This document shows positions 4,095-5,726 of a stretch of 11,672 nt of DNA, piece by piece (the stretch's first letter is position 1; every line of letters starts with the position of its first letter). This DNA is from Firmicutes bacterium ADurb.Bin467. Lineage in GTDB: Bacteria; Bacillota; Clostridia; Christensenellales; Aristaeellaceae. A model generated the notes under the pieces. That model was not told the DNA's origin, did no database searches, and worked only from the letters and a program-made list of their open reading frames with translations. A program made the translations under genes and the position numbers. The DNA lies in contig MWAC01000312.1 in the NCBI GenBank assembly GCA_002068815.1, positions 1-11,672 of the forward strand, given 5' to 3'.

Positions 4095-4727
4095 CTACTC
4101 GATGACGCGAATCCGGTTCAGCGGCCAGATCACGAAGCGCGCGCGGCCGATGATCATGTCCCCGGTGATCGGGCCGACGTCGCCCTCGGGCTGCCGGTCG
4201 TTCCAGTCTCGCGAGTCGTGGCTGTCGTAGATGTTGTCGCCGACGACGAAGTACTCGTCCGCGCCGAGCGTGTACGGGTCATAGTCGTCGGGCTTGCCGT
4301 TCGGGTAGAGCGCGCCGCGCAGCTCGTCGATCGGCTCGCCGTTTACGTAGGTCACGCCGTTCTTGCGCTCGACGACGTCGCCCGGCACGCCCCAGACGCG
4401 CTTGACGAAGTTCGTCTCCGAGCGTATGCCGAACAGACCCGCCGAATAGCGGTTCGGATAGTGGCAGATGACCACGTCGCCGCGGTCGACGCCCACGAGC
4501 TTCACGTCGAGCACCGAGACGAACAGCCGCTCGTTGTTGAGCAGCGTGTCCATCATCGAATTCCCGTCGACGCGGATCAGCGTGAACAGGAACGTCCGGA
4601 TCAACAGCGCGATCAGAACCGCCGCGGCGAGCGCGATCGCCCACTCGCGAATCTCCTTCCACACCCTCGACCCCCGCTGCGGCTGGACGTTCGCGCCCTG
4701 GGTGTCTCCCTTGATTTCCTCGTTCAC
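4095..4727 (-). CDS. lepB: Signal peptidase I, copy 1
   Basis: This is a 210-residue type I signal peptidase, the membrane serine protease that removes signal peptides from exported preproteins. It has a cytoplasmic N-terminus of about 28 residues, one transmembrane helix (29-50), the box around catalytic Ser57 (GNSMMDTL), general-base Lys109 in FVKRVWGVPGD, and the GDNIYDSHDSRDW box (163-175). The usual SMxPTL motif reads SMMDTL, so the conserved proline is replaced by aspartate. I chose a GTG start at 4727 because AGAGAGG lies 8 nt upstream and because 23 extra codons in the longer frame (ATG at 4796) are translated from the inverted-repeat element. It follows a second lepB and precedes the M1-like gene by 3 nt. 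Copies are common in Bacillota, and different substrate sets are possible. Confidence 0.93.
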   Translation of the reverse strand: MNEEIKGDTQGANVQPQRGSRVWKEIREWAIALAAAVLIALLIRTFLFTLIRVDGNSMMDTLLNNERLFVSVLDVKLVGVDRGDVVICHYPNRYSAGLFGIRSETNFVKRVWGVPGDVVERKNGVTYVNGEPIDELRGALYPNGKPDDYDPYTLGADEYFVVGDNIYDSHDSRDWNDRQPEGDVGPITGDMIIGRARFVIWPLNRIRVIE

Positions 4728-4760
4728 AGATGAAACCTCTCTTCTGTCAATGATTCGGAT

Positions 4761-4862
4761 GCCAAAAGTCCATTTCCCGGGATTGAGCCGCAACATATTG
4801 CGCAGACAATCGGTAACGAGCCCAATATGTTGTGGCGCTGAGGATGGAAATGGACTTTTGGC
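4761..4862. repeat. 102-bp symmetric inverted-repeat element (MITE-like) between two lepB genes
   Basis: Two arms mirror each other exactly in layout. GCCAAAAGTCCATTTCC (4761-4777) has its perfect complement at 4846-4862, and CAACATATTG (4791-4800) has its perfect complement at 4823-4832. Each pair of blocks is separated by 13 nt that are not complementary, and the centre is a 22-nt loop (4801-4822). The outer repeat extends by one further T-A pair. No open frame of its own and no T tract is present. TGTCAAT occurs on both sides (4745-4751 and 4871-4877), but not flush with the ends, so it is a weak candidate for a target duplication. It may be a non-autonomous mobile repeat or an RNA hairpin that sets relative expression of the two peptidases. 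The structure is seen directly; its origin is inferred. Confidence 0.8.
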
Positions 4863-4872
4863 ACCCTCAGTG

Positions 4873-5382
4873 TCAATAGATGCCCCGAAAAAACTTCTCG
4901 ATCGGCCAGAGGTGAAATCGCGCGCGGCCGATAAAGTCCCTCCTGGAGAGGACGCCCACGTCCGCGGCGCGGCTGTCGTAGCTCTCGAGCCGGTTGTCGC
5001 CGAGCACGAGGTACTCGCCCTCGTCGAGCGTGATCTGAAAGTCCTCGCAGCGATCGGTCCCCGTCGCGTAGGCTTCCGGGAGAACCTCCCCGTTTAAGTA
5101 TGCCACGCCGCCCCGAATCGCATAGGAGTCGCCCGGAATCGCCGCCACGCGCTTCAAATACGTCTGCTCGCGGCCGGGCAGCAGGCACAGCGCGACGTCG
5201 CCGCGGTTCGGCCCCGAAAACCAGTAGTCGAACTTCGTCAGAAGCACGATGTCCGTGTTGTAGAGCGTCGGCTCCATCGAGCTCCCGATGACGCGCGCGG
5301 TGCCGAACACCTGATCGCGTATGATGATCCCGACGACGACCGCGCCCAGAACCCAAACCCACCAGGATACAGCCCGCCTCAT
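4873..5382 (-). CDS. lepB: Signal peptidase I, copy 2
   Basis: This is a compact 169-residue type I signal peptidase with a very short cytoplasmic N-terminus and one transmembrane helix (about 7-21). Catalytic Ser35 lies in GSSMEPTL and general-base Lys77 in LKRVAAIPGD; the GDNRLESYDSR box follows at 128-138 and IGRARFHLWP at 151-160. All canonical motifs are intact, in contrast to the SMMD variant in copy 1. The ATG at 5382 has GGAGG 7 nt upstream and overlaps the DUF951 stop (ATGA), which indicates translational coupling. The two copies are clearly divergent (different lengths and inserts), so this is an old duplication or separate acquisition, not a recent tandem copy. The 102-bp inverted repeat follows 10 nt after its stop. 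Confidence 0.94.
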   Translation of the reverse strand: MRRAVSWWVWVLGAVVVGIIIRDQVFGTARVIGSSMEPTLYNTDIVLLTKFDYWFSGPNRGDVALCLLPGREQTYLKRVAAIPGDSYAIRGGVAYLNGEVLPEAYATGTDRCEDFQITLDEGEYLVLGDNRLESYDSRAADVGVLSRRDFIGRARFHLWPIEKFFRGIY

Positions 5383-5726
5383 TGTGAATCCTCCGCATGG
5401 CCAACGTTGGAAACCCTTCGGGTTTCCAAGTCGGCGGAGCCGACCGCGGATTTCTGAATCGGGGTGAATTTGTCGGAATTCATTCCGCCAAATTCAGTCC
5501 CGGAGGGACCGGTTTTTCCGTCCGGAAAAACCGCCTTGGATTCAGAAACCGCGCGTTCGATGCGCTTGATTCGCTTTTCGAACACCGGACGCTCGAGCAT
5601 GACCACCCTTCCGCAGCCCTCGCAGCGCATCTTGATGTCCGAGCCCACGAACGTGACCTTCCACAGATCGCTTCCGCAGGGATGCGCCTTTTTCATCTTC
5701 ACAACATCGCCGACCGTGAGAAGCAT
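5379..5726 (-). CDS. DUF951 family protein with a repeat-derived C-terminal extension
   Basis: Residues 1-57 match the small DUF951 family: VGDVVKMKKAHPCGSDLWKV, then KMRCEGCGRVVMLERPVFEK. The Cys and His residues are typical, and the family usually ends near 60-70 residues. Function of the family is not established; a nucleic-acid-binding or zinc-binding role is often guessed from the cysteines. From about residue 58 to the stop (115) the protein is an unrelated hydrophilic tail encoded by the palindrome cluster at 5401-5553. The frame nevertheless stays open and its TGA overlaps the lepB2 ATG, so coupling is retained. The ATG at 5726 lies 4 nt after korC, with GAAGGA upstream inside the korC end. 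I am sure of the DUF951 core, less sure the whole tail is a stable protein part. Confidence 0.87.
   Translation of the reverse strand: MLLTVGDVVKMKKAHPCGSDLWKVTFVGSDIKMRCEGCGRVVMLERPVFEKRIKRIERAVSESKAVFPDGKTGPSGTEFGGMNSDKFTPIQKSAVGSADLETRRVSNVGHAEDSQ
5401..5553. repeat. Cluster of nested palindromes with cloverleaf folding potential, inside DUF951 coding sequence
   Basis: Seven inverted repeats occur in 153 nt. CCAACGTTGG (5401-5410) is a perfect palindrome. TTGGAAACCC (5407-5416) pairs with 5420-5429 across TTC. GTCGGC (5430-5435) pairs with 5439-5444 across GGA. An outer stem of 15 bp with one bulge joins 5445-5460 to 5539-5553. Inside it are three hairpins: TGAATTTG/CAAATTCA with an inner GGAA/TTCC (5465-5496), GTCCC/GGGAC (5497-5509), and CGGTTTTTCC/GGAAAAACCG (5510-5533). 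The last four form a closed stem with three side hairpins, like a cloverleaf. The cluster begins almost exactly where the DUF951 core ends. This density is far above chance and suggests a dispersed palindromic element; its copy number elsewhere cannot be seen here. Confidence 0.85.

Follow-up and report, generated by a model that had tools for sequence, protein, structure and literature searches.

How does a gene come by a C-terminal half that is written in inverted repeats and still end at the right place? This question is raised by a DUF951 gene in the window (the whole 11,672-nucleotide stretch of DNA analysed here), whose tail is encoded by a cluster of hairpins and whose stop codon overlaps the start of the next gene, lepB. 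The window comes from a MAG of an uncultured gut bacterium (74% complete, 320 contigs) that clusters by its orthologues with Candidatus Pullichristensenella and presumably belongs to that genus. An original prediction, made from the window alone, had proposed the in-frame insertion of a palindromic element. The analysis reported here indicates that the DUF951 tail very probably consists of a three-hairpin repeat in two copies, a dispersed and non-autonomous element of Candidatus Pullichristensenella and related genera.

RESULTS

The DUF951 gene and its extended tail

The Pfam family DUF951 (PF06107) matches residues 4-56 of the 115-aa ORF (Table 1), which agrees with the original prediction that the core ends near residue 57. 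The frame is open as far as the stop, and lepB, a signal peptidase gene, lies directly behind the DUF951 gene and is joined to it by an ATGA overlap, both as predicted. Two consecutive signal peptidase (PF10502) genes follow DUF951, at 4095-5382 of the window. The tail is presumably translated. AlphaFold (18 sequences in the alignment) gave residues 61-115 a mean pLDDT of about 50 and no secondary structure; the tail is predicted to be disordered, and its addition is probably tolerated and not useful.

Table 1. Features of the DUF951 gene and its hairpin cluster (window coordinates)
Feature	Position	Strand	Basis or remark
DUF951 gene, 115 aa, extended tail	5379..5726	-	ORF; residues ~58-108 from repeat units
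ATGA, DUF951 stop overlapping lepB start	5379..5382	-	lepB = 4873-5382
Outer three-hairpin unit, split by inner	5403..5554	-	77 nt without inner unit (78 if start = 5555)
Outer H1, 5' arm	5539..5552	-	pairs with 5446-5460; folds
Outer H1, 3' arm	5446..5460	-	pairs with 5539-5552; folds
Outer H2 hairpin	5430..5444	-	fold and model match
Outer H3 hairpin	5407..5429	-	perfect-stem script, fold, model match
Inner three-hairpin unit, 75 nt, opposite orientation	5463..5537	+	models R1 and R2, fold
Inner H1 hairpin	5465..5496	+	fold
Inner H2 hairpin	5497..5509	+	fold
Inner H3 hairpin	5510..5533	+	perfect-stem script, fold

The hairpin cluster is two nested copies of one unit

On the coding strand, the region 5395-5560 folds at -87.7 kcal/mol compared to a mean of -54.8 kcal/mol for shuffled sequences (z -7.9; 0 of 200 shuffles as low). 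The fold is one closed stem carrying three side hairpins, as had been predicted, and then two further hairpins. This gives six hairpins in the cluster; to arrive at the seven inverted repeats of the original prediction, the two-tier inner H1 must count as two. Two of these hairpins were picked up by a script that looks for perfect stems of at least 9 bp, and a repeat finder with default seeds did not list the short hairpins of the cluster.

Beyond what had been predicted, the cluster is two copies of one three-hairpin unit in opposite orientation, one inside the other. The unit has the layout H1-H2-H3 with ends GG...CCTT and is about 72-79 nt long. The inner unit sits within the H1 loop of the outer unit, and the closed stem with three side hairpins is the outer H1 enclosing inner H1, H2 and H3. 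When the 75-nt inner unit is removed, the 77 nt that remain of the outer unit fold into three clean hairpins with an H1 loop of 3 nt (-44.5 kcal/mol, z -6.6, 0 of 200 shuffles as low). The inner unit alone gave a fold z of -4.5, again with 0 of 200 shuffles as low. It should be noted that the 5' end of the outer unit was placed by hand, guided by a unit in hflX that is described below.

The unit belongs to a dispersed and covarying family

BLAST searches yielded little: a 160-nt window query found two partial copies besides the window, and a 75-nt query gave seven weak extra hits at E up to 10, none of which was accepted as a copy. Covariance models were therefore used. The pattern of the last hairpin (outer H3) was found at 28 sites in 5 of 60 genomes (window genome included), with 0 in a backwards control. 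The first alignment, made with MAFFT, held 18 distinct sequences from relatives, three hits from the window genome being left out. Its stems covary, as 12 of 30 pairs had changes on both sides compared to 2.5 in shuffled alignments (none of 500 reached 12) and 1-4 with the structure slid. In a later alignment of 42 sequences both sides had changed in 26 of 30 pairs, compared to 16.3 shuffled and 8-14 slid, though this alignment was fitted to the structure and therefore leans toward it. The compensatory stem changes that were proposed as a check on the original prediction are well above both kinds of control.

Model R1 was built from the 18 sequences of relatives and holds no sequence of the window genome, while model R2 includes seven units of the window genome and no window sequence. 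With filters off, R1 matched the outer unit at 5403-5489(-) with 44.7 bits and the inner unit at 5463-5537(+) with 37.0 bits, both at full length; these matches overlap because the second unit lies inside the first. The same interruption explains why the outer unit scores below most copies against R1. Within the window genome, R2 matched the inner unit at E 8.7e-8 and the outer unit at E 8.4e-5. Both window units are members of the family; full independence from the model applies to the inner unit alone, since the seed pattern of R1 was taken from outer H3.

A search for further copies, also proposed with the original prediction, found the sequence to be multi-copy. In the window genome R1 matched at least 8 places at E up to 1.3e-5, after removal of 6 of the 14 rows, all with E > 0.01; most of these were opposite-strand matches to units already counted, and one lay at C285. 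R2 gave 12 rows there, corresponding to at least 11 units at 10 or more loci, with the twelfth row (E 0.04) overlapping the gpmI unit on the other strand. Among the 60 genomes, window genome included, R1 matched in at least 9, with at least 26 matches in G002, 25 in G005, 22 in G006, 13 in G022, 8 in the window genome, 4 each in G003 and G028, 2 in G021 and 1 in G025. Among 300 genomes of the taxonomic family (again including the window genome), matches at E up to 1e-5 were found in at least 34 genomes and at least 7 of 50 genera. All unit counts are lower bounds because scoring covered a part of the first-look candidates of each genome. Nothing in Rfam matched the window stretch (E up to 1) or seven unit loci (E up to 0.1). 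Phages gave no BLAST match to the unit of one relative and plasmids none to the window cluster, and the unit pattern had no match in IMG/VR.

Sister genomes show the DUF951 site without the units

A DUF951 orthologue was matched in 48 of the 60 genomes searched (window genome included), and 80 orthologues were kept from 106 related loci. These proteins are 57-87 aa long with a median of 65, and none of the 80 reaches 100 aa, which is the outcome that the original prediction had anticipated for orthologue length. Four same-genus orthologues (G002, G003, G005 and G006) are 70 aa each and run by the same ATGA onto lepB. In G004, the fifth, the protein has 68 aa and the ATGA overlap is missing, and the same-genus genome G001 gave no DUF951 match. 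Set against the four 70-aa sisters, the window gene has a net gain of 45 codons in frame. Addition in frame, as originally predicted, is thus upheld, and the predicted size of about 55 residues has to be lowered to that net figure. In the sister comparison the host sequence picks up again on the 3' side at G(H/N)AED. The 5' junction is not clean and its position is uncertain, as some 17-18 nt of the host tail are without a counterpart there.

Units lie in frame in gpmI, tatD and hflX

Three further genes of the window genome, whose families (GpmI, TatD and HflX) were confirmed with Pfam, carry the unit in frame. The gpmI unit is 75 nt and encodes residues 288-312, and all five matched same-genus genomes lack these residues with contiguous flanking matches (G002 gave no gpmI match; the DNA junction was read for G004). 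The tatD unit of 78 nt is absent in 6 of 6 same-genus genomes, with junctions read for all six, and the hflX unit, 72 nt and antisense to the gene, is likewise absent in 6 of 6, with the DNA junction read for G004. At all three genes the net gain equals the unit length, and therefore no target duplication is needed. However, tatD and hflX have identical triplets on the two sides of the unit, and a 3-bp duplication offset by codon loss is therefore possible at these two. The empty sites at DUF951, gpmI, tatD and hflX bear out the predicted in-frame insertion of a palindromic element, and the presence of units in frame in four unrelated genes fits the likeness in principle to Rickettsia elements that had been drawn.

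The tatD gene (L260, G000:C45) contains, apart from the unit, an unusual stretch of about 37 codons that is bracketed by two copies of a short direct repeat and is not present in the sister species. A second partial tatD (G000:C138:6869-7171) covers residues 1-101 and is 87% identical. Rearrangement or chimeric assembly is possible for both. A separate AlphaFold model of GpmI made from three sequences had a mean pLDDT of 44 and was discarded.

Unit length was a multiple of three in 5 of 5 coding units (gpmI, tatD, hflX, G021:C39 and the inner unit) compared to 18 of 56 others; these 61 units are 60 of 71 listed rows plus the inner unit. A first coding test flagged gpmI and hflX of the window genome, missed tatD and DUF951, and was replaced by a uniform test that called for an open frame through the unit and coding-like codons in both flanks, the 5' flank being enough where fewer than 15 codons follow the unit. 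By the uniform test 4 of 10 loci of the window genome (gpmI, tatD, hflX and DUF951) are coding compared to 5 of 123 places in relatives (Fisher p 0.0018), a comparison in which the copies in relatives are non-independent. These five calls are 1 of 61 places from the R1 search of 60 genomes and 4 of 62 from the 300-genome search, and the 61 places are part of the 97 R1 places outside the window genome, most of the strongest copies of G005 and G022, which lie in hairpin mosaics, being left out.

The coding unit at G021:C39 lies in a mannitol-dehydrogenase-family gene, that at G060:C46 (L331) in a gene encoding a DNA polymerase A exonuclease domain and that at G098:C188 (L351) in a gene with a peptidoglycan-binding domain. 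The gene called at L350 (G021:C243) had no Pfam match, and the call at L337, a 59-codon frame, is probably spurious. The host genes of L350, L351 and L331, all in other genera, look phage-like or DNA-processing.

Units in leader RNAs and spacer mosaics

One unit of the window genome (L070, G000:C39:1703-1779) lies inside a match to the cobalamin riboswitch aptamer (RF00174, E 9.4e-19) and is an insertion relative to the RF00174 model. Another adjoins a T-box match that scores below the gathering score. Two units (L305, G000:C258:585-656, and L307, C142:41-112) occupy the same position in a pair of similar flanks that look like leaders. These flanks gave no credible Rfam match, the L307 stretch reaching only a chance-level 0.79, and this leader could be a structured RNA that has yet to be described.

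In relatives, units are embedded in longer hairpin mosaics of the spacers. G006 (L133-L145) has near-identical unit copies at many loci, often near contig ends, which suggests recent spread, and one of its mosaics (L134) holds two units. Several other hairpin modules surround the unit in these G006 mosaics. In a strict test of hairpin-loop targeting, 8 of 54 units lay in loops compared to 68 of 830 control points, and in a looser test 15 of 46 units of relatives and 2 of 8 of the window genome did so compared to 114 of 831 controls. As the copies are non-independent, general targeting of hairpin loops by the unit is suggestive only.

DISCUSSION

Origin of the tail

Under the proposed origin, the outer unit would have inserted near the end of the DUF951 gene, and the inner unit would then have entered the loop of H1, the hairpin that leads the first unit. 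Insertions would survive where their net length is divisible by three and no stop interrupts their frame, and DUF951 would thereby have gained its 45 net codons while still ending on the lepB start. The order, outer then inner, is what we infer, since no strain with only one unit at DUF951 was seen. Of the insertion and mobility that were originally proposed, the empty sites establish insertion, and the dispersion of the unit, those same sites and the near-identical copies suggest that it is non-autonomously mobile.

The hairpins could instead be a regulatory RNA of the DUF951-lepB operon (an attenuator, an mRNA stabiliser or a coupling element), with the tail as a by-product. This would account for a strong fold directly before lepB and is in keeping with the units found in leader RNAs. 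However, the hairpins are absent from the same operon in the sister genomes, and the unit occurs in unrelated genes in both orientations, so this explanation is improbable. An assembly or binning artefact might be suspected because the MAG is fragmented and contains the odd extra stretch in tatD and the second partial tatD, but the frame is kept and the boundaries are exact in four genes on four contigs, and we consider such an artefact very improbable. The tail might also have arisen by local drift and local hairpin duplication, without insertion of a dispersed repeat. Already disfavoured, this is extremely improbable: the inexact 5' junction relative to the sister species would fit it, but both units match models free of window sequence from end to end, GG and CCTT termini included. 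Insertion of the dispersed repeat is therefore preferred. The interpretation put forward in the original prediction is supported, and its own tests (a tail shared by orthologues, a single-copy sequence, stems without compensatory changes) did not refute it.

Compatible with insertion of the dispersed repeat is the idea that a REP/RAYT-like Y1 (HUH) transposase moves the unit, its gene being lost or missing from the assembly. Hairpins and the lack of a clear target duplication fit Y1 chemistry, and Y1_Tnp was found in 3 of the 9 unit-bearing genomes of the R1 search (G002, G005 and G025). However, Y1_Tnp (PF01797) was not found in the other 6 (the window genome, G003, G006, G021, G022 and G028), and three of these 6 have a completeness of at least 97%. 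There is no clear association between Y1 transposase and unit presence, and a mover of this kind is unlikely, if far from negligible. A single-strand, hairpin-recognising mechanism would suit exact insertion without clear target duplication. A broader and tentative suggestion, which we would not yet bet on, is that gut Bacillota harbour a new class of non-autonomous hairpin elements, to which the unit would belong. Such elements would insert exactly and without target duplication, enter hairpin loops including those of their own copies and of a riboswitch, build Russian-doll structures that leave the host RNA or frame usable, repeatedly write disordered protein segments, and be moved by something other than Y1 transposases.

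In the literature consulted, palindromic repeats in frame are known mainly from Rickettsia and Wolbachia, and some REPs lie within genes elsewhere. A covarying family found in four genes of one genome of the gut Bacillota, with a nested copy in one gene and with empty sites in close sister species, makes this route to new protein segments a broader one and shows that in this lineage, too, structured repeats are able to create such segments. The before/after pairs at DUF951, GpmI, TatD and HflX make the cost of such inserts measurable.

Comparison with known systems

The unit's modules may resemble those of BOX elements. Like MITE, BIME and BOX elements, the unit is non-autonomous and dispersed, and in relatives it is part of modular spacer mosaics. 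It may differ from MITEs: judged by eye, the unit alignment has no long terminal inverted repeats, and there is no clear target duplication at three sites (gpmI, tatD and hflX, with identical flanking triplets at tatD and hflX). Some elements of the MITE, BIME and BOX kind carry ORFs that fuse to host genes, according to the portion of PMC10969869 consulted. No description of this repeat family was found among literature titles and abstract openings, a coverage outside which subscription papers and preprints lie, and the part of the RepRanger paper (PMC12306157) that was available did not contain the terms for Clostridia, Christensenella or Rickettsia.

The available sections of PMC3733652 describe the GTAG/CGTC-tagged REP elements associated with RAYTs as short dispersed palindromes that lie mostly in spacers and sometimes within genes, so genes carrying palindromic repeats are not new as a kind. 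The unit is likewise a short dispersed palindrome. However, it has three hairpins, its ends in the 18-sequence alignment are GG and CCTT with no GTAG/CGTC tag, and it lacks the clear Y1 association of REP/RAYT systems.

The closest parallel in description is to the Rickettsia and Wolbachia palindromic elements (RPE and WPE), which the consulted portions of PMC3767692 and PMC10969869 present as dispersed palindromic repeats in unrelated protein genes that leave the frame intact and encode solvent-exposed segments. As with these elements, the unit lies in frame in several unrelated genes; the likeness is one of description. The window genome is neither Rickettsia nor Wolbachia and belongs to another phylum, and the unit, at about 72-79 nt with three covarying hairpins, differs from elements of 100-150 bp. 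Also unlike RPE and WPE, one copy of the unit is nested in another inside a gene.
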